Below are positions 9,831-27,737 of a stretch of 40,785 nt of DNA, piece by piece (positions within the stretch are counted from its first letter, which is position 1; each line of letters starts with the position of its first letter). The position numbers were made by a program, and so were the translations under genes. The notes under the pieces were generated by a model, which was given only the letters and a program-made list of their open reading frames with translations, searched no databases and was not told the DNA's origin. This stretch comes from a virus, in IMG/VR virus record IMGVR_UViG_3300027822_000007, positions 1-40,785 of that record, one strand, 5' to 3'.

Positions 9831-9938
9831 GATGTCAAAAAACGATTTACGTTGGTCTGGGGTAAAAGCGTCTTTGTCACAAGAATGTATGTACCGGAGG
9901 TGGGTGGCACCAGGGGCATATCGTCATATGTGAATGTA

Positions 9939-10020
9939 CTGATACCTAACCCATCAACGAACACTGATACCTAACCCATCAACGAACACTGATACCTAAC
10001 CCATCAACGAACACTGATAC
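9939..10020. repeat. 25-bp tandem repeat, 3.3 copies (iteron-like)
   Basis: Three perfect 25-bp units at 9939-9963, 9964-9988 and 9989-10013, each beginning CTGATACCTAACCCATC, followed by a partial unit CTGATAC to 10020. Perfect identity and direct orientation in a gene-free region point to initiator-binding iterons or a multi-site operator. There are no spacers, so it is not CRISPR. Confidence 0.85.
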
Positions 10021-10057
10021 ATAGACTACTATGTATCGTCCTGCTTCGATCTATTAC

Positions 10058-10143
10058 ATCGTTACCTATCGATACTTGTATTCATCTATGACGATATGCT
10101 ATGTATCGTTACCTATCGATACTTGTATTCATCTATGACGATA
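10058..10143. repeat. 39-bp direct repeat, two copies, with internal palindromes
   Basis: Bases 10058-10096 and 10105-10143 are identical (39 bp, period 47). Each contains the palindrome TATCGATA. The arms GTATCGT (10104-10110, also 10033-10039) and ACGATAC (10138-10144) are inverted. Together with the neighbouring 25-bp array this forms the densest repeat cluster of the genome, the best candidate for a replication origin or master operator. Confidence 0.8.
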
Positions 10144-13947: not shown

Positions 13948-14598
13948 ATGAAAATTACAAAACAATGGCTCAGAGACCGTGGTGCATGTGACAGCAGTTT
14001 TAATCACGTATGTGAGAATAATTATATTGGGCTTGATGGAACTGTTTTTGTTAAAAAGCTTATCCAGAATAACCGTTTATCGGATGCAAATTGGCTCATC
14101 GTGAGAATAATGAATAAAAAGCAGCTTGTTAACTATGCAATTTTTGCCGCCGAACAGGTTCTTGATATTTATGAGAAAAAATGCCCTAAAGATAACAAAC
14201 CTAGAAAAGCAATTAAATCCGCAAAAGAATACTTAAGAAATCCGTGTAAGAAAACAGAAGATGCTGCTGCCCATGCTGCTGCCCATGCTGCTAAGGCTGC
14301 TTATTCTGCTGCTAAGGCTGCCTATGACGATGCTTCCTATGCTGCTTATTCTGCTGCTTATTCTGCTGCTAAGGCTGCTTATTCTGCTGCTAAGGCTGCC
14401 TATGACGATGCTTCCTATGCTGCTTATTCTGCTGCTAAGGCTGCCTATGACGATGCTTCCTATGCTGCTTATTTTGCTGCTGAAGCTGAAGCTGATGCTA
14501 CAATAAAAAGAAACAAACTATTAAATATTTTAAACAATGGTTTGGATCTTTTAAAGGCTTATCACTACAACACAAATAATATTAACATACAACCTTAA
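13948..14598 (+). CDS. Alanine-rich repeat protein with Imm5-like N-terminal domain
   Basis: 216 residues after AAAGGAGTATAAC. Residues about 45-95 (ANWLIVRIMNKKQLVNYAIFAAEQVLDIYEKKCPKDNKPRKAIKSAKEYLRNP) match a domain known from putative Imm5-type immunity proteins and many phage proteins. Residues about 105-180 are a helical repeat with unit AAYSAAKAAYDDASY, three copies, encoded by perfect 45-bp DNA repeats, then a short helical C-terminus. The family's role as immunity protein is itself a prediction from comparative genomics; in phages the function is unknown. Confidence 0.8.
   Translation: MKITKQWLRDRGACDSSFNHVCENNYIGLDGTVFVKKLIQNNRLSDANWLIVRIMNKKQLVNYAIFAAEQVLDIYEKKCPKDNKPRKAIKSAKEYLRNPCKKTEDAAAHAAAHAAKAAYSAAKAAYDDASYAAYSAAYSAAKAAYSAAKAAYDDASYAAYSAAKAAYDDASYAAYFAAEAEADATIKRNKLLNILNNGLDLLKAYHYNTNNINIQP
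14296..14463 (+). repeat. 45-bp coding repeat, three identical copies
   Basis: Units at 14296-14340, 14374-14418 and 14419-14463 are identical at the DNA level, separated in one place by a 33-bp partial unit. Lack of silent differences indicates recent expansion, so length may vary between isolates. Confidence 0.9.
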
Positions 14599-14617: not shown

Positions 14618-15202
14618 ATGGAGCCAAGTACTAATTATATTGCTTTTGATAGGGAGTTGGACGTGCTGAACCCTGATACATGGGAACCGGATATGGAGGA
14701 CGTGTATAGAGCATTGCCCAAGATTAACCGTTTTAATGGTCAAACGAGCGAACCATACTCTGTTGCACGGCATTGTCTGAATTGTTTGCACGCCGCTGAG
14801 CAGTTGTACGGGCAAGCTGATCATGAATTTTTGCTTGCTGTCTTGTTGCACGATGCCTCTGAAGCTTACATTGGTGACATTGTGAGACCTATTAAGCAGC
14901 GTTTTAATGGCGGACTCAAAGTCTTAGAGGACACCATTTTAAAGACAATCTACAAATCTGTTAATGTGAATCCTTGGTTTGTTTACAGTGAGACAGTTAA
15001 ACACATTGACACCTCCATGGCGTTGACCGAGATTAATATGTTAACTTCTATGAAGGCATCGTCGCTGATGGAAGGTGTACAGTACTACCCGGACAATTAT
15101 TGTGAACCCACAGTCACTTGGCAAGATGATGAGCATGAATTTAGAGTTGCTGTAAAGTCATTAGCAGTACGATTAGATGACAAGCGCTATGAAAAGAGAT
15201 AA
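14618..15202 (+). CDS. HD-domain 5'-deoxynucleotidase, YfbR-like
   Basis: 194 residues after AAAGGAGAATAGATA. The HD metal site is complete and spaced as in E. coli YfbR: H52 (SVARHC), H78-D79 with E82 and D87 (LLHDASEAYIGD) and D131 (KHIDTSMALTE). YfbR-type enzymes remove phosphate from deoxynucleoside 5'-monophosphates in the cytoplasm. In this phage it could shift the dNMP pool in favour of the nucleotides made by the synthase/deaminase fusion at 24075. Substrate preference cannot be read from the sequence. Confidence 0.85.
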   Translation: MEPSTNYIAFDRELDVLNPDTWEPDMEDVYRALPKINRFNGQTSEPYSVARHCLNCLHAAEQLYGQADHEFLLAVLLHDASEAYIGDIVRPIKQRFNGGLKVLEDTILKTIYKSVNVNPWFVYSETVKHIDTSMALTEINMLTSMKASSLMEGVQYYPDNYCEPTVTWQDDEHEFRVAVKSLAVRLDDKRYEKR

Positions 15203-16804: not shown

Positions 16805-18404
16805 TCCGTATCCTCATCAGCAAAAAGCCTTTGACAAATTCAAGAATGAACCATTTGGAGCGTTGTTGGCTGACATGGGTACAGGCAAGTCTAAGATTGC
16901 TATCGACTTGGCATCGTATAAATACGTTAATGGTCTACACGACAGTGTGCTTGTTGTCGCTCTTAACGCTGTACATCCTCAATGGATTGATGAGCAATTT
17001 GCTGAGCATTGTCCTGTGCCATGGGTTGGCTTTAGTTATTCATCAAAGAAGACAATCAAATTCTTGAGAAAGATGGACGCCTTTCTACAGACACCTACAC
17101 CTGGCAAACTACGTGTCTTCACAATGAATTTTGAAGCTTTCAGCTACAAGGCAGGGATTGAGATGGCAAAACGGTTCTTTAAACTATCAGACAAACCACC
17201 AATTATTGTTGTTGACGAGGCGTCAAGGATAAAGAACCCTGCTGCTAAGACTACACGTAGCCTGATAAAGCTTAGGAAGATGTATCCTCATAGCTTTAGA
17301 ACAGTTCTTACTGGTACTCCAGCTGCCAAATCACCTGTGGACATGTGGTCTATTTACGAGTTCTTAAAGGACCGTTACATGGGTTGCAGTTATGCTGCAT
17401 TCAAGATTGAATACAGTGTCCTTGTTAAAAAGAAAATAGACGTAAAAGGACGATTGATTACAATAGAATCAGTGCTTGATCAGTATTCATTCTTTAAGAT
17501 AAAGAAGCTGATTGCAGAGAATTTAATAGGCGGAAAGCTCAGGATGCCGGTCATTAGTGCTATTCGCTCACGGTTTGGTTTATCTGAGCAGGATTTTTGG
17601 TTCATTTATTCGTCACCTGAGTTTGCTGCATTTAAGCATCTGGACGATCTTTTAAAGCACATTAAGCCAAATACATTCTCTATAAAGAAGGAGGATTGTT
17701 TGGAATTGCCTGAGAAGATCTATAAAAAGATTGAATTAACATTGAATGCAGAGCAGAAACGTATCATTAAGAACCTGTCAAAGTACGCTGTTGCACATTA
17801 TAATGGAGAAGAGTTAACACTTAATATGAAAGCGATGCTTGGAATGCGGGTGCTTCAAATCTGTGGTGGGTTTTTTAGTCACCATACTGACATTGAAGGT
17901 AAGTACGAACAGAAAAAGATAGCAGGTGCTAACAGTAAACTTGAATACATTAAACAGGATCTACCTGAGTTGGGCAATCAGCAGTTTATGATATGGGCTG
18001 TGTTCACAGCGGAGATAGATTTACTGTGTGAAGAATTGTCAAAGAATTATGCTGTTGGACGTCTGGATGGTACGACACCCAAAGATGTTCGGGCAGAGAT
18101 AATAAACGATTTTAAGGCTGGACGTCTACAAGGGCTGATTAGTAATCCTGAAGTAGGTGGTTATGGTCTTAATTTACAAGGCGCTGGGGTTCAATATTGG
18201 TACTCCAGAAATTTTAGAACAGAAGCAAGGCTACAGGCTGAGGACCGTAGCCACCGTATTGGCGTTACCAAATCACCGGTCTATAAGGATTTGGTATATG
18301 ATGTAAAATTTGAGCACGCTGTGTTGGAGTCTCTTAAACAAGGACTTAATATCAACGCTCAATTTATGTCTAACGAATTGACAGAGTTGTTTGAACTAAT
18401 TTAA
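16788..18404 (+). CDS. SNF2-type superfamily 2 helicase/ATPase
   Basis: The ATG at 16788 (after AAAAAGGAGAGCGCTG) is preferred to a frame from 16752. 538 residues. PYPHQQKAFDKF (Q motif-like), ADMGTGKSK (motif I, about 28-36), VVDEASRIKN (motif II, DEAS variant), LTGTPAAKSP (motif III), then in the second RecA lobe GLISNPEVGGYGLNLQGA (motif V) and AEDRSHRIG (motif VI), all typical of the SNF2 family. Such phage enzymes remodel DNA-protein complexes or branched DNA during replication or recombination. No nuclease domain is attached. Confidence 0.9.
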   Translation: MQFKTNPYPHQQKAFDKFKNEPFGALLADMGTGKSKIAIDLASYKYVNGLHDSVLVVALNAVHPQWIDEQFAEHCPVPWVGFSYSSKKTIKFLRKMDAFLQTPTPGKLRVFTMNFEAFSYKAGIEMAKRFFKLSDKPPIIVVDEASRIKNPAAKTTRSLIKLRKMYPHSFRTVLTGTPAAKSPVDMWSIYEFLKDRYMGCSYAAFKIEYSVLVKKKIDVKGRLITIESVLDQYSFFKIKKLIAENLIGGKLRMPVISAIRSRFGLSEQDFWFIYSSPEFAAFKHLDDLLKHIKPNTFSIKKEDCLELPEKIYKKIELTLNAEQKRIIKNLSKYAVAHYNGEELTLNMKAMLGMRVLQICGGFFSHHTDIEGKYEQKKIAGANSKLEYIKQDLPELGNQQFMIWAVFTAEIDLLCEELSKNYAVGRLDGTTPKDVRAEIINDFKAGRLQGLISNPEVGGYGLNLQGAGVQYWYSRNFRTEARLQAEDRSHRIGVTKSPVYKDLVYDVKFEHAVLESLKQGLNINAQFMSNELTELFELI

Positions 18405-18419
18405 GCAAAGGAGATTAAG

Positions 18420-18704
18420 ATGAATGAACGAGAAGTGTGTGGTTCAAGTGCGCCGCAGAGAGAACGGCAAGTCACTGAGTATCTCAGCCGCTTAAGAATG
18501 GAAATTGATTCAGTTGAAAATACAATTGAAATTCTGGCTAATAGGCTTTCACTTGTATTAACTCTTGTACCAGCGCAAGCAGCTGGCGAGCCCAAAAAAT
18601 CATTGGAATTAGTGCCGTTAGCTTCGGAGATTGGGGAATCTGTTGATCGTATTTTACATGTTAATGGAGTGTTAGCATCCTTCTTGCAACGACTTGAAAT
18701 TTAA
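18420..18704 (+). CDS. Small helical protein of unknown function
   Basis: 94 residues after AAAGGAGATTAAG. Mostly helical (YLSRLRMEIDSVENTIEILANRLSLVL; ASEIGESVDRILHVNGVLASFLQRLEI), suggesting a coiled-coil oligomer. No family recognised. Lies between helicase and recombination genes in one operon with short spacing. Confidence 0.75.
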   Translation: MNEREVCGSSAPQRERQVTEYLSRLRMEIDSVENTIEILANRLSLVLTLVPAQAAGEPKKSLELVPLASEIGESVDRILHVNGVLASFLQRLEI

Positions 18705-21117: not shown

Positions 21118-22692
21118 ATGGTAAACGCTCGTACTTACGTGGAGAAATTCTCAGAGCTTTTTAAAGGGAACGAAGACGTTTACGGAGTGCATGTTCCAGA
21201 AAAACCAAAGCCAGGTGAGAAAGCTGTAGGAAAGTCATTTTCCAAACGTGCTAAGTTAGACGTCAAAGGCTACATGAAGCATTTACTTGGGAATGAGTCT
21301 ATTGGCGTGGTGCCATTAGACGCATCTGGCGCTGTTAATTTTTCTGTTATTGATGTTGATGAATACCCATTAGAACCCACTAATATAATGGCTGCTATAA
21401 AGCGTGCCAAACTACCTTTAATGGGTTTTAGAAGTAAATCTGGAGGACTCCATCTGTATTGCTTTTTTAGAGTCTCTTCAGCAGCTTCTCAAGTACTTCC
21501 TATAACGCGAACAATACGTCGAGCATTGGGATTAAAGCCAGACACAGAGATATTTCCAAAGCAAACTAAGCTTCTTGGTGACGCTGTTGGAAGTTGGATA
21601 AACCTGCCGTACTTTAATTTCGAAAAGACAGTCAGATATGCCTACGACGAAAATTGTCAACCAATGTCATTAAAAGAAGCATTAGCTCAGGCATTCGCAT
21701 CAAGAACAACAATACAAGAGCTTCAAGGCATGATCAAAGAGTTGCCATTAGCTCAAGCTCCGCCGTGTCTTCAGACATTGTTTCTAAAAGGTGGTGCAGG
21801 TGAAGGTGCAAGAAATGCGTTCTTGTTTAACTGCGCTACGTATTTAAAAGCTCGATTTGGTGAAGGCTTTTCAGAGCACTTACACGTGCTAAATAGACAC
21901 ATGCAAATACCATTAGAATATGAAGAGCTTGACAGAACAATAATATCATCACATAATAAAGGAGATTACAACTACCAGTGCACAGATGGAACACTAATGC
22001 TCCATTGTGACAAAGAAGAATGCGGTACAAGAAAATTCGGCAAGGGTGTAGGATTAGTAAGTGATTTGTCATTCGAGCAATTGACACAAATACAGTGCTC
22101 AAAGCCGTATTACAGGTGGAAAATTAATGGCGAGGAAATGATATTCCAGAGTGAAGCTGATCTTATGAATCAAAATAAATTTAGGGAATTGTGTTTACGT
22201 TACTTGCACAAAGTTCCTGAGCGATTAAAAGATAATTCTTGGACAAGTATACTAAATCGTGCGTTAATAAATGTTGAAGTGCTCAACTCTGATGCGTCTG
22301 ATGGAATGAGCGAAGACTCTCTATGGATGTCAAAAGTTGGAGAGTTCTTATCATTAAGGCGGGCAGTAAGAGCCAGCCAAATTGAGGATGGTTTAGTTTA
22401 CAACAACGGAAATGGTTGCCTGCACTTCAAAGGCAACAAGCTGCTTGAACATCTTGAAAAGACAAACTTGTTTAGAAATTTTAAGTCCTCTGATCACCGA
22501 CATTTGTTAAAGAAGCTCGGTGCAAGACAAGCGAAACTTCGGTATACCGATATAGGCAAGACTGCAAGGACTTGGGAAGTAGATTTGAATTCATTGCATG
22601 CTCGTAACATCTTCACCGAGATAGAAATAGACGAAGAGGACTATACCAAAGAGATGAAACCTTTAGACTTTATTGGAGAGGAGAAATACTGA
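21118..22692 (+). CDS. Archaeo-eukaryotic-type (AEP) DNA primase
   Basis: ATG at 21118 (behind GTGAAGGGCTGATT) is preferred to a frame from 21070 that overlaps the nuclease gene. 524 residues. NFSVIDVDEYPL (D79-x-D81) is the metal site; FRSKSGGLHLYCFFRV (S107...H112) is the sxH motif; AVGSWINLPYFNF follows, all as in AEP primases of the type linked to TOTE systems and many phages. The C-terminal half (residues about 240-524) includes Cys/His positions LHCDKEECGTRKFG and a helical end, perhaps a primase-C-like domain. No helicase motif is present, so it relies on the separate helicase. Confidence 0.85.
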   Translation: MVNARTYVEKFSELFKGNEDVYGVHVPEKPKPGEKAVGKSFSKRAKLDVKGYMKHLLGNESIGVVPLDASGAVNFSVIDVDEYPLEPTNIMAAIKRAKLPLMGFRSKSGGLHLYCFFRVSSAASQVLPITRTIRRALGLKPDTEIFPKQTKLLGDAVGSWINLPYFNFEKTVRYAYDENCQPMSLKEALAQAFASRTTIQELQGMIKELPLAQAPPCLQTLFLKGGAGEGARNAFLFNCATYLKARFGEGFSEHLHVLNRHMQIPLEYEELDRTIISSHNKGDYNYQCTDGTLMLHCDKEECGTRKFGKGVGLVSDLSFEQLTQIQCSKPYYRWKINGEEMIFQSEADLMNQNKFRELCLRYLHKVPERLKDNSWTSILNRALINVEVLNSDASDGMSEDSLWMSKVGEFLSLRRAVRASQIEDGLVYNNGNGCLHFKGNKLLEHLEKTNLFRNFKSSDHRHLLKKLGARQAKLRYTDIGKTARTWEVDLNSLHARNIFTEIEIDEEDYTKEMKPLDFIGEEKY

Positions 22693-24062
22693 TGAAGCGC
22701 CACACTGTATTTGGCCCACCTGGGACAGGAAAAACAACAAGATTAATGGAAATGCTTGAGGAGCGAATAGCTATATTACACGCAAGCAATATAGCCTTTT
22801 GCTCATTTACAAAGCAAGGAACAAATGAAGGCGCAGGAAGAGCAAAGAAGCGTTTTAAATTAAGCGATTTTGACCTACGATTTTTTAGAACGCTTCATTC
22901 TCTTTGCTTTAGAGAATTAGGAGCTAACAGGGCTGACATGATATCCAGAAGACACTACTTGTTGTTTTCAAAACAAACAGGTATCAACTTCTCTGGCTTT
23001 TACAACTCTGACTTCTCGTCAACTAATGATGTGTACTTACATTTATTGTCAATGGAGAATCACAATGAGGCTTGTGCTAATTTGATGTTCAAGCAAATAA
23101 ACAAAAAGAAATATGAGTATGTTAAATATCAATATAAAGAATTGAAGAAACAACTTGGAATAATGGATTTTGATGACCTGCTTCTTGACTATCTTAAAAA
23201 GGGTAGACCATTGCCTGTAAAGTGTGCTTTGATTGATGAAGCACAGGATTTAACTCCGCTTCAATGGAGAGTTGCAATGAAGATGTTTTCAGCAACAGAC
23301 GAAATAATCATTGCCGGTGACGACGATCAGGCTGTTTACGAATGGTCAGGCGCCGATGTAAATATCTTTTTAAACTTTTCAAAATCACAGACTGTACTTT
23401 CAAAAAGTTATCGCTTGCCAAAGACTGCGTTGAACTTTTCTGCTAAGATAGCAAAAGAGATCTTTACTCGAAAGGACAAGTACTTCATATCAAATGGAAG
23501 ACAAGGAAAATTGTCAACAGCCAGGTCTCTTGATAAAGTTAGATTAAAGGGAGGTGAACTTGTTTTAGCAAGAACAAACAAGATACTGCAAGAAATGACA
23601 ACAGCAATGTTAGAGAAAGGACTGCCGTACAAGCTTAAAGGTAAGCTCAGCTGGGACAGACAAATTGTCAGTGCAATAAAACTTCACAGACGATATATTG
23701 CTGGAAAGATTCCAGAAGAGCTGTTAAATCCAGTCAGGCATTTATTTGAACATATTTCAATAAAATCACCTTGGATGGCTTCAATAAAATTGCCTACTCA
23801 TGAAAAGCAATACTACGGAAATTTAATCGACAATATTGACAAAGAACCTGTTTTGTTTGAAACATTCCATAGTTGTAAAGGTAGTGAAAATAAACACGTG
23901 ATTATCTCCACAGACTTATCGAAGAAAGTTTACGACAATTTTGCAGAATCGAGAGATGCTGAATTAAGATGTCTGTACGTTGCATCAACAAGGACACAAG
24001 ATAGAATGACTATTCTTAAACCGTCAGGTAAATTATATTATCCGACAAAATATATAAATTAA
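22692..24062 (+). CDS. UvrD/Rep-like superfamily 1 DNA helicase
   Basis: 456 residues, ATG overlapping the primase stop by one base (TGATG). Motif I GPPGTGKTT (about 8-16), motif II ALIDEAQDLTPLQW, motif III GDDDQAVYEWSGA, motif IV-like SKSYRLPK, motif V FHSCKGSENKHVIIS and motif VI LYVASTRTQDRM are all intact. At 456 residues it is a minimal UvrD-type enzyme without the large 1B/2B domains. It is the likely replicative or recombination helicase of the phage, cotranslated with the primase. Confidence 0.93.
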   Translation: MKRHTVFGPPGTGKTTRLMEMLEERIAILHASNIAFCSFTKQGTNEGAGRAKKRFKLSDFDLRFFRTLHSLCFRELGANRADMISRRHYLLFSKQTGINFSGFYNSDFSSTNDVYLHLLSMENHNEACANLMFKQINKKKYEYVKYQYKELKKQLGIMDFDDLLLDYLKKGRPLPVKCALIDEAQDLTPLQWRVAMKMFSATDEIIIAGDDDQAVYEWSGADVNIFLNFSKSQTVLSKSYRLPKTALNFSAKIAKEIFTRKDKYFISNGRQGKLSTARSLDKVRLKGGELVLARTNKILQEMTTAMLEKGLPYKLKGKLSWDRQIVSAIKLHRRYIAGKIPEELLNPVRHLFEHISIKSPWMASIKLPTHEKQYYGNLIDNIDKEPVLFETFHSCKGSENKHVIISTDLSKKVYDNFAESRDAELRCLYVASTRTQDRMTILKPSGKLYYPTKYIN

Positions 24063-24074
24063 GGAGATTTTAAA

Positions 24075-25295
24075 ATGAATAACCCTGTAGTTAGGAGCAA
24101 TTTTGACTTAATCTATGTAAAACTCATAAGTCTGCTTTTTGATGGTGAGCAATCTACTAATAGAAAAGGAGACACTATACGAGAAGTTTTTGATCAAGCG
24201 TTTACGCTGACAAAACCTTTGGACTGTTTAGCTTTTAGCCGAGAATTCTCAGAAAAATACTTGAAAAACGAACTTCTATTTTATGCTGGAGGCTCAAACA
24301 GTGTTAAAGAAGCTTCTAAGTTAAGTAAATTTTGGGAGAAGTGCTCAGATGATAACTTAACAATAAATAGTAATTACGGTCGTCTGCTTTTTCATTTAAA
24401 GAATTCTCATGGGTTTACTCAATTTGAGCACGCTATAAATTGCTTAAAGAATAATCCAAGGAGCAAAAAGGCGGTTATGACATTGTACAATAACGAGAAT
24501 GCTTATATCAGTAACGATAATCCATGCACTATGTACATTCGTCTAAGAATAGATAAAGCTTGGAAGCTTCACGCAACTGTGTGTATGCGATCAAGCGACA
24601 TCTACTATGGTCTTCCATATGATGTTCCGTTTTTTATATTCGTTCAATGGTGCGCATTACAGGTATTAGTAACAGAATATGATCAATTGGAATTGGGCAC
24701 CTACACACATATGGCGAATTCTTTGCATTTCTATGAAAGCAAAATAGCGCCATTAAGCAGAGCGCTTCTTGAAGGCGCACGGATTATTCAAAAACATGAA
24801 CAAGAATGGCTCTTAAACACTTATAACAAAGCAAGAGATAAATTGGTTGAAGAGAGGGTTCCGTGCTTTGAAAAATTGCATTTTATGAAACTTGCATGGG
24901 AAGCGTCGCATAACAGCAAATGCTTAAAAAAGAAAGTAGGCGCTTGCTTAACAATTACAAGAAACGGAAATGAGCGCTTAGTTAACGCTTACCATGGTGG
25001 CGCTGAAAAAGAGTGTAAAACATGTGCCAGAGAAGATGACAATGATCCATTTTTTGGTGACGAATGTCCATCGATTCATGCAGAGATGCGCTGTATATTC
25101 AGAGCCTTAAAAGCTGGAGTACAACGCAGAGGATCTGAGGACTATTTTACACTGTACACTACACATGGCCCATGTGATGCTTGTTTAAAATTAGCTGATT
25201 ATGCTGGCGTAAAGTATACATTCTACGATAAACCGTACAAAACGAACTATAATCATTGGCCAAACATTACTATCCGACAACTACATTGTAAATAA
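24075..25295 (+). CDS. Fusion: thymidylate synthase-fold (dCMP hydroxymethylase-like) + dCMP deaminase
   Basis: 406 residues after AAGGAGATTTTAAA. Residues about 30-245 have the synthase fold: NPRSKKAVMTLYN (phosphate site), NDNPCTMYIRLRI with nucleophile C151, MRSSDIYYGLPYDVPFF (171-187) and LGTYTHMANSLHFYE (207-221). In true thymidylate synthases the third motif reads RSxDxxLGLPFN; here the Asn that recognises uracil is D183, the change known in T4-type dCMP hydroxymethylase. Residues about 265-406 are a dCMP deaminase: KKVGACL, H335-A-E337, and P366-C-D-A-C370 for zinc. One chain thus combines C5-modification and deamination of dCMP-type nucleotides. Product (dTMP, 5-hydroxymethyl-dCMP or -dUMP) is not fixed by sequence. 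Confidence 0.85.
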   Translation: MNNPVVRSNFDLIYVKLISLLFDGEQSTNRKGDTIREVFDQAFTLTKPLDCLAFSREFSEKYLKNELLFYAGGSNSVKEASKLSKFWEKCSDDNLTINSNYGRLLFHLKNSHGFTQFEHAINCLKNNPRSKKAVMTLYNNENAYISNDNPCTMYIRLRIDKAWKLHATVCMRSSDIYYGLPYDVPFFIFVQWCALQVLVTEYDQLELGTYTHMANSLHFYESKIAPLSRALLEGARIIQKHEQEWLLNTYNKARDKLVEERVPCFEKLHFMKLAWEASHNSKCLKKKVGACLTITRNGNERLVNAYHGGAEKECKTCAREDDNDPFFGDECPSIHAEMRCIFRALKAGVQRRGSEDYFTLYTTHGPCDACLKLADYAGVKYTFYDKPYKTNYNHWPNITIRQLHCK

Positions 25296-25307
25296 GGACG
25301 TAACAAT

Positions 25308-27122
25308 ATGCTTACAGATAATGAACTAAGCGCGCTTATCTCTGCTGACACTATAGCAGTTGATTTAGAGACAAAAGATCCTGAATTACGTGAGAAAGGT
25401 CCAGGTACACATCGTGGTGAAGGTTACATTTGCGGCATGTCAGTTGCACGGGACGGATTAAGTGCGTATATCCCTTGGAGGCACCCTGATGTAACTGCGG
25501 AGTGTGCTAATAGAAACATTCTCATTGCTAAGGACATTTTGAAAGCGAACAATGCCAAGATTGGCGCTAATATAATGTACGATCTTGAATGGCTCGCACA
25601 TGAGAATTTTAAAGTTAATGGAGTGATCGAGGACGTTCAATACGCTGAACCGTTATTAAATGAGTACAAGCGGAAGTATAACTTGAACGCTATTGCAAGA
25701 GGGTACGGACTACGTGAAAAGGCGACAAGTGTTCTTGAAGACTACAATAGTATGATGGGTTGGAAAGAAAAGGCTATCCAGAATATTTGGAGAATGCCTT
25801 CGAGAATTGCAGGTGACTATGCAAAAATTGACGCAGAGCTTCCATTAGAGATATTTAAAAAGCAAAAGACTGCGCTTGAATCACAAAATTTATGGGAACT
25901 ATACAGAATGGAAATGGATCTGATACCGCTCTTATTAAAGATGAGAAAACAAGGTGTCAGGCTTGACATGGAACAATTAAATAGGACAACAATAAAAGTT
26001 ACAGATCAACATTTTAAATTAAAGGAGAAAATCTATTCATGGGCGGGTAAGGAATTCAACATCGGTTCCTCGCAGCAGCTTGCTAAGATTTTTGACGTTA
26101 AAAATATTGCCTACCCCAGAAATGCCCCAACGCTCAAAATGGCCGAAAAGGGACTCAGGGGCAACGCAAACCTGGACAAAATGGCGCTTTCCAGGATCGC
26201 AAAAATTGAGCCTATTTGCAAGACGATATTGGACTATAGGCATTACGACACGCTTATAAATATGTTCCTGTATCCGTATTTAAAATTTGCTGTTGATGAT
26301 AGATTATATTGTTCCTTTCATCCACTACGAACAGACGAGTACGGAACAGTGTCTGGAAGATTTTCTGCATCAAAGCCAAACCTTCAACAAGTACCAGCAA
26401 TGTCTGAAGATTCTGATGATGAAAATATAAAAGGACAAATAATTCGATCGTTGTTCATTCCAGAAGAAGGACACTTATGGGCAAAACTTGATTACTCACA
26501 AGTTGAGTATAGGATACTTGCGCATTATGCAACTGGACGAGGGGCAAGAGAATTACGTGAGAAGTATAACAATGATCCTACAACGGACTTCCATAAACAT
26601 ATACAGGATTCAACAGGATTTGCTCGTAGAACATCAAAACGCCTTAATTTTGGAGGCGTATACGGTATGGGAGTGAAGACAGCCTGCAATCTCTTTGAGT
26701 GGACTCAGGATGAAGGAAATAACTTTATGACAACATATCACACAAACGCCCCTTACGTGAAAGCAACAAGAAGCGCAGTATCTAAAACTTGTTCAAGACG
26801 TGGATACATATTTACAATCCTTGGAAGAAAGGCAAGGGCTCATTCCAGTAGAAAACTTCACAGCATGTTCAATCGCTTAATGCAAGGTGGTGCAGCAGAC
26901 ATAATGAAAAAAGCTATGGTAGACAGTTGGAAGGCAGGTGTATTTGAAGTTCTTGATCCGCATATAACGGTTCATGACGAATTAGACGTATCTTTTGAAG
27001 ATACAAAAATAGAGAAGGAGGCGCTTGAAGAATTAAAAAATATAATGGAAAATTGTGTAAAGCTTGATGTGCCAGTGCTTGTTGATTGTCATACTGGAAA
27101 GAATTGGGCTGAGGCCGATTGA
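25308..27122 (+). CDS. Family A DNA polymerase with 3'-5' exonuclease
   Basis: 604 residues after AAGGACGTAACAAT. Exonuclease: AVDLET (D19, E21), ANIMYDLEWL and a Y-x3-D (DYAKID) motif. Polymerase: motif A LDYSQVEYR, motif B RRTSKRLNFGGVYG (Phe at the position that disfavours dideoxynucleotides), motif C VHDELD. At 604 residues it resembles the Klenow part only, with no 5'-3' exonuclease domain. It is the replicative polymerase, in the same operon as primase, helicase, ligase and nucleotide synthesis. Confidence 0.96.
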   Translation: MLTDNELSALISADTIAVDLETKDPELREKGPGTHRGEGYICGMSVARDGLSAYIPWRHPDVTAECANRNILIAKDILKANNAKIGANIMYDLEWLAHENFKVNGVIEDVQYAEPLLNEYKRKYNLNAIARGYGLREKATSVLEDYNSMMGWKEKAIQNIWRMPSRIAGDYAKIDAELPLEIFKKQKTALESQNLWELYRMEMDLIPLLLKMRKQGVRLDMEQLNRTTIKVTDQHFKLKEKIYSWAGKEFNIGSSQQLAKIFDVKNIAYPRNAPTLKMAEKGLRGNANLDKMALSRIAKIEPICKTILDYRHYDTLINMFLYPYLKFAVDDRLYCSFHPLRTDEYGTVSGRFSASKPNLQQVPAMSEDSDDENIKGQIIRSLFIPEEGHLWAKLDYSQVEYRILAHYATGRGARELREKYNNDPTTDFHKHIQDSTGFARRTSKRLNFGGVYGMGVKTACNLFEWTQDEGNNFMTTYHTNAPYVKATRSAVSKTCSRRGYIFTILGRKARAHSSRKLHSMFNRLMQGGAADIMKKAMVDSWKAGVFEVLDPHITVHDELDVSFEDTKIEKEALEELKNIMENCVKLDVPVLVDCHTGKNWAEAD

Positions 27123-27311: not shown

Positions 27312-27737
27312 ATGGAAGAAGAAAAATTCGACAAAATTGTTGCAATACGGTTACATAAGATAGAAGAACTTTTACTGCGCAAGTCTAAAGAGTACGCATT
27401 TAACGGCGACAGGCTCTGGAATTTTAAACAAGCAGCAAGATTCACTGGACAATCTCAACAAAAAGCTCTTTGGGGAATTGCAGCAAAACACTTTGCATCA
27501 GTCGATGATCTTGTAAATAAGCGACTGGCGCCAAGAAGAGAGATGATTGACGAAAAGATAGGCGATTTGATTAACTATCTTATAATCTTAGAAGCAGTTT
27601 TTATTGAGGAGAATAATCATGGACCTATGGATACTGATCGATCGGATAATAGCAATACTCGAACAGCTACTGAAGTAACAAGCGCTGCCGATACGGCAAT
27701 AGAAAAAATAAGCGATATTTTTAGCAGGATGGAGTGA
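27312..27737 (+). CDS. Conserved phage protein, DUF1599/nucleotide-modification-associated-like helical family
   Basis: 141 residues after AAAGGAGAATAAA. KSKEYAFNGDRLWNFKQAARFTGQSQQKALWGIAAKHFASVDDLVNK...EKIGDLINYLIILEAVF (about 24-100) is a recurrent all-helical phage pattern that resembles proteins annotated as nucleotide-modification-associated or DUF1599; the assignment to that family is uncertain. The last 40 residues are low-complexity and polar. If the family link holds, it would fit with the dCMP-modifying fusion upstream. Confidence 0.65.
   Translation: MEEEKFDKIVAIRLHKIEELLLRKSKEYAFNGDRLWNFKQAARFTGQSQQKALWGIAAKHFASVDDLVNKRLAPRREMIDEKIGDLINYLIILEAVFIEENNHGPMDTDRSDNSNTRTATEVTSAADTAIEKISDIFSRME

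Follow-up and report, generated by a model that had tools for sequence, protein, structure and literature searches.

We found that the window, i.e., the whole stretch of DNA analysed here (40,785 bases), encodes a single protein in which a putative dCMP hydroxymethylase of the thymidylate synthase (TS) fold is fused to a domain of the dCMP deaminase family. Our favoured reading, to which we assign about an even chance, is that dCMP is hydroxymethylated by the first half and that the resulting 5-hydroxymethyl-dCMP (hm-dCMP) is deaminated to 5-hydroxymethyl-dUMP (hm-dUMP) by the second. What the analysis shows directly is the fold, the signature residues, the fusion itself and the gene neighbourhoods.

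The fusion gene, its genome and its relatives

The window appears to be a whole podovirus genome, which gives the absence of a gene from it some weight. It has a 127-base direct repeat at its ends and P22-type coat and portal genes, and its replication block comprises a ligase, an SNF2-type helicase, a primase, a UvrD-type helicase, the fusion and a family A DNA polymerase (Table 1). The HD-domain phosphohydrolase further upstream may be tied to the base-modification pathway.

Both domains lie in one open reading frame, as the preliminary description had stated. Above the curated cut-offs of Pfam, PF00303 (thymidylate synthase) matches aa 20-231 of the fusion (E = 1.7e-23) and PF00383 (dCMP/cytidine deaminase) matches aa 269-381 (E = 6e-11). 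An AlphaFold2 model of the fusion had a mean pLDDT of 79.9 and a pTM of 0.64. When this model was used in Foldseek, the CMP hydroxymethylase MilA was the best match by E-value, and the T4 dCMP hydroxymethylase target had a TM-score of 0.77.

Table 1. Positions of the fusion gene, its domains and key residues, and of selected other genes in the window.
Feature	Position	Strand	Basis or remark
Fused pyrimidine hydroxymethylase-deaminase gene (predicted)	24075..25295	+	ATG start, 406-aa ORF; same fusion in L038, L039, L040
TS-fold domain (T4 gp42-like, putative dCMP hydroxymethylase), aa 1-233	24075..24773	+	PF00303, Foldseek
Ser99-Asn100-Tyr101, counterpart of the water-positioning S-x-Y pair Ser94/Tyr96 of T4	24369..24377	+	In all clade members
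Lys131-Lys132, at phosphate-binding Arg126/Arg127 of E. coli TS	24465..24470	+	Alignment
Asp148-Asn-Pro-Cys151-Thr152: hydroxylation Asp (T4 Asp145), catalytic Cys, Thr at position 147	24516..24530	+	Alignment
Asp183, base-specificity residue (E. coli Asn177, T4 Asp179)	24621..24623	+	Alignment
Deaminase domain, aa 264-406	24864..25292	+	PF00383; nearest solved structures are dCMP deaminases
His307, at the GYNG Asn of canonical dCMP deaminases	24993..24995	+	Alignment
His335-Ala-Glu337, zinc ligand and catalytic Glu	25077..25085	+	Motif
Cys367-x-x-Cys370, zinc ligands	25173..25184	+	Motif
UvrD-type helicase	22692..24062	+	Directly 5' of the fusion gene in all fusion loci
Family A DNA polymerase	25308..27122	+	3' of the pair in all fusion and separate-gene loci
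HD-domain phosphohydrolase	14618..15202	+	PHROG deoxyribonucleoside 5'-monophosphate phosphatase; weak YfbR match

Three other regions of the window were recorded. Short direct repeats with 25-base and 47-base spacing occupy positions 9938-10143, a region without a clear gene between gene blocks on opposite strands, which is possibly an origin or a regulatory region. The protein encoded at 13948-14598 contains alanine-rich repeats in an array (about 14250-14500); its Imm5-like match is weak. A conserved small helical protein (phrog_6802) is encoded 3' of the polymerase at 27312-27737; visual inspection suggests a likeness to all-alpha pyrophosphohydrolases, and as a dCTPase/MazG candidate it gave a single-sequence model with a pLDDT of 53.

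The preliminary description had suggested searching for the fusion in other phage genomes. With the window protein alone as query against viral contigs there was no match, and relatives in IMG/VR were reached through a DNA polymerase query. Three further fusions were found in contigs from different metagenomes (L038, 412 aa; L039, 401 aa; L040, 410 aa). They are 49-53% identical to the window protein, retain the catalytic residues, and each is encoded between UvrD and DNA polymerase. Because these contigs carry the same fusion, it is confirmed as real, and is neither a chance event nor a local assembly error. Among 50,697 phage records there was no match to a single-gene form; the two records that matched at least 80% of the fusion have separate genes side by side.

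The relatives with separate genes number seven: L011 (=L043), L012 (=L042), L041, L044, L045, L046 and the MAG contig L118. The hydroxymethylase and deaminase genes overlap in four of them, are a few bases apart in two and 261 bases apart in one. In the tree, the fused proteins group together as a single clade (support 100/99), nested within a joint clade of fused and separate-gene forms (100/96). In genome contigs, a search with the TS alignment gave no match, and a search with the fusion alignment found a single MAG contig, which has separate genes and is probably phage DNA that was misplaced. Xp15 and the uncultured marine phage S28-C10 likewise have adjacent genes for an Asp-type (D-type) TS and a deaminase, but in both the genes are separate, and the S28-C10 enzyme lacks the hydroxylation Asp.

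Substrate and chemistry of the first half

The TS-fold half was aligned with E. coli TS, T4 gp42 and phage enzymes. Asp183, within the segment RSSDIYYGLPYDV (aa 172-184), aligned with Asn177 of E. coli TS and Asp179 of T4 gp42, which bears out the Asn-to-Asp switch noted in the preliminary description. E. coli position 143 is Asp in the window protein (Asp148, three residues before Cys151), and position 147 is Thr, which the protein shares with the remaining Asp177-type phage enzymes aligned. The Arg pair with which the partner subunit of T4-type enzymes binds phosphate is replaced by Lys131-Lys132, of which the first Lys is peculiar to the window clade among the phage sequences aligned. The C-terminal tail of TS is absent: the Pfam and PDB matches end near aa 232, and are followed by a linker and the deaminase.

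These residues set the window protein apart from thymidylate synthases, as Asn177 and Leu143 are both replaced by Asp and the tail is missing. They also differ from the dUMP hydroxymethylases of the SPO1/PhiW-14/YuA type, which share the fold and the hydroxylation Asp and whose genomes usually include a deaminase gene as well, but which have the uracil-type pair Asn177 and Asn147 in place of the Asp and Thr of the window clade. This Asn pair was present in all ten hmU-type (5-hydroxymethyl-uracil) phage enzymes aligned (PaMx11, PhiW-14, YuA, Pam3, SH-Ab 15599, RHph_TM26, LysYB1, Montesquieu, SPO1 and ViI).

In the structure of T4 dCMP hydroxymethylase, the hydroxymethylation signature consists of an Asp three residues before the Cys and a Ser-x-Tyr pair, and the missing C-terminal tail is stressed (PMC6400193). 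The window protein has Asp at position 177, Asp148/Cys151, Ser99/Tyr101 and no tail. It thus resembles T4 gp42 in Asp179, Asp145, Cys148, Ser94-x-Tyr96, the Thr after the Cys, the tail-less end and the fold, and differs from it in the fusion to a deaminase and in Lys131 at the first phosphate-binding Arg. Judged by these residues and the fold, the first half is very probably a dCMP hydroxymethylase. The preliminary description had proposed dCMP as its substrate, which is supported, and had left the choice between methylation and hydroxymethylation open. Hydroxymethylation is favoured and methylation to dTMP disfavoured, because Asp148, Ser99-x-Tyr101 and the tail-less end match the published signature.

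The CMP preference of MilA also involves Ala176, and in this active enzyme the first phosphate-binding Arg (Arg126) is likewise a Lys (PMC5175136). As Ser173 stands in place of Ala176 in the window protein, unlike in MilA, a deoxy substrate is expected for the first half.

Proposed pathway and gene neighbourhoods

In the favoured reading, a P22-type podovirus that builds modified bases would have the fusion as a two-step nucleotide enzyme. The first half would convert dCMP and methylene-tetrahydrofolate into hm-dCMP, like T4 gp42, and the second half, a re-specialised domain of the dCMP deaminase family, would most likely convert hm-dCMP into hm-dUMP; hm-dCMP may be handed from one site to the other within the polypeptide. 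Host thymidylate and nucleoside-diphosphate kinases could bring hm-dUMP to the triphosphate, which would be incorporated in place of T. The window ORFs scanned include no recognisable nucleotide kinase. The route from dCMP via hm-dCMP to hm-dUMP would be the reaction pair of SPO1 and PhiW-14 in reverse order; the order reported for PhiW-14 and SP-15 starts with dUMP to hm-dUMP (PMC5977210). Human DCTD deaminates hm-dCMP, CMPK1 cannot phosphorylate hm-dCMP, and DTYMK phosphorylates hm-dUMP (PMC10305735). Since DCTD and DTYMK perform them, the later steps, i.e., deamination of hm-dCMP and phosphorylation of hm-dUMP, appear chemically reasonable by analogy. Of the outcomes suggested in the preliminary description, hm-dCMP to hm-dUMP is supported as one; we infer the order of the steps from gene neighbourhoods, and likewise infer the substrate of the deaminase half and hmU in virion DNA.

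In all seven separate-gene relatives, PF18723, a TAGT glycosyltransferase and a YfbR-like HD gene are found near the pair, and several also have a radical-SAM gene nearby. PF18723 and the HD gene count in favour of the two-step reading, together with the residues D177/T147/D143/S-x-Y shared with T4 gp42. Among phage records, homologues of PF18723 occur in thymidine-hypermodified phages and their relatives, e.g., PhiW-14, PaMx11, YuA and Pam3, and among the matches listed an alignment search returned already-known loci only. The biochemical role of PF18723 is taken from its annotation, as HMUDK_hel in Pfam and as aGPT-Pplase1 in Pam3. TAGT glycosyltransferases act on hm-cytosine in T6-type phages (PMC13390438), and their presence in the separate-gene relatives points to hm-cytosine, in the opposite direction to PF18723. 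TAGT thus counts against the two-step reading, as does the absence of both PF18723 and the 5-hmdU DNA kinase PF18748 from the window. PF18723, PF18748 and TAGT were all absent from the sequence of the four fused contigs, three of which may be fragments.

Independent evidence came from another lineage of D-type enzymes, represented by contig G035. Its sole TS is of the D-type, a bona fide 5-hmdU DNA kinase (PF18748) lies two genes upstream, and its deaminase gene overlaps its PF18723 gene. On the G035 contig, the kinase near the D-type hydroxymethylase and, elsewhere, the PF18723/deaminase overlap are located at L066:5113-6551 and 16886-18681. Apart from G035, PF18748 was confined to Asn-type phages in a survey of 40 records. 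The relatives of the G035 TS are all Asp-type by motif. A PF00383 gene was present in 6/6 relatives with PF18748 on contigs of at least 12 kb (G035 included), and in 0/12 relatives without PF18748 on contigs of at least 17 kb (Fisher 5e-5); Fisher values overstate the evidence, because the tree yields only two supported independent contrasts for the association of kinase and deaminase. Two contigs with a deaminase but no kinase (L148, L149) are shorter than 10 kb, too short to judge. Across 41 D-type entries, all 13 with a hypermodification gene had a deaminase, against 13 of the 28 without one.

The two halves may instead compete for dCMP at a branch point as in T4, one yielding hm-dCMP for hm-cytosine DNA and the other dUMP for dTMP, with the fusion setting the ratio. 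We hold this possible but rather unlikely. T4 has D-type hydroxymethylase and deaminase as separate enzymes (gp42 and Cd), and D-type TS, deaminase and carbamoyltransferase co-occur on modified-cytosine contigs (PMC8670742) and in Xp15; the pairing of a D-type enzyme with a deaminase in T4 and on these modified-cytosine contigs also counts against the hm-dUMP route, and TAGT in the separate-gene relatives fits the branch point as well. On the other side, the deaminase gene of the G035 relatives occurs only alongside the 5-hmdU kinase where contigs are long enough to judge, none of the window ORFs scanned was recognisable as an hm-dCMP kinase or a glycosyltransferase, and the GYNG region that is intact in T4 Cd is altered in the window deaminase.

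The deaminase half and the final base

The preliminary description had called the zinc site of the deaminase half complete. Its motifs are indeed all present (H335-A-E337 and P366-C367-D-A-C370), but the canonical GYNG Asn is missing. The nearest solved structures are the dCMP deaminases 4p9c, 2hvv and 1vq2. With T4 Cd and other phage dCMP deaminases, which are its best PDB sequence matches, the window domain shares the HxE...PCxxC zinc site; it differs from them in lacking the GYNG Asn and in having a CxxC...C loop. This loop-3 Asn is replaced in 11/11 clade members, by Ser in L012, by Gly in the others and by His307 in the window, a placement that depends on a short alignment. Cys283, 314, 317 and 331 are conserved across the clade as a Cys cluster, and the CxxC...C loop and Cys283 could form a second zinc site. 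In Acinetobacter phage Effie (L009:3737-4567), a D-type TS gene is directly followed by a sequence for a deaminase domain that is extended at its C-terminus by a long segment.

The loop-3 Asn is spatially conserved among reportedly active zinc deaminases, inactive domains typically have Gly in its place, and the N244G substitution abolishes the activity of APOBEC3G (PMC4683357). The replacement throughout the clade counts against deamination of hm-dCMP, and would fit a deaminase half that is catalytically dead or regulatory, in a protein that yields hm-dCMP only. We consider such a loss of function improbable, since the zinc ligands and the catalytic Glu are kept in 11/11 clade members, and the Cys cluster and the THGPCDxC motif (THNSCDAC in L040) are conserved. 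RibD-type deaminases have a different residue at the loop-3 Asn site, which also weighs against a dead domain. Activity of the deaminase half is plausible but not assured; as the loop-3 Asn is missing, activity on dCMP or hm-dCMP is not to be assumed.

An alternative thymidylate route, with dCMP methylated to 5-methyl-dCMP and deaminated to dTMP, is very improbable: Asn177-to-Asp mutants of TS methylate dCMP according to work cited in PMC8670742, but the hydroxylation signature and the absent tail of the window protein speak against a plain methylase. Two other loci (L002:5986-7182, AP013540.1; L062:4207-5425) encode a D177 TS-like enzyme in which position 143 is hydrophobic and Ser-x-Tyr is missing, beside a dCMP deaminase gene, and are candidates for such a pair of dCMP methylase and deaminase (dCMP to 5-methyl-dCMP to dTMP).

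With comparable chances of being true or not, some phages make 5-hydroxymethyl-uracil DNA by hydroxymethylation of dCMP followed by deamination, with both activities fused in the window clade. If so, this would be a second route to hmU, via hm-dCMP, a metabolite that is deaminated in human cells. The coupling of the two steps is directly testable with one purified fusion protein. The Asn/Asp residue of phage TS-like enzymes serves as a guide to the modified base, cytosine versus uracil (PMC8670742, PMC5175136). If a D-type enzyme together with a deaminase makes hmU, relying on this residue alone would lead to the wrong final base.
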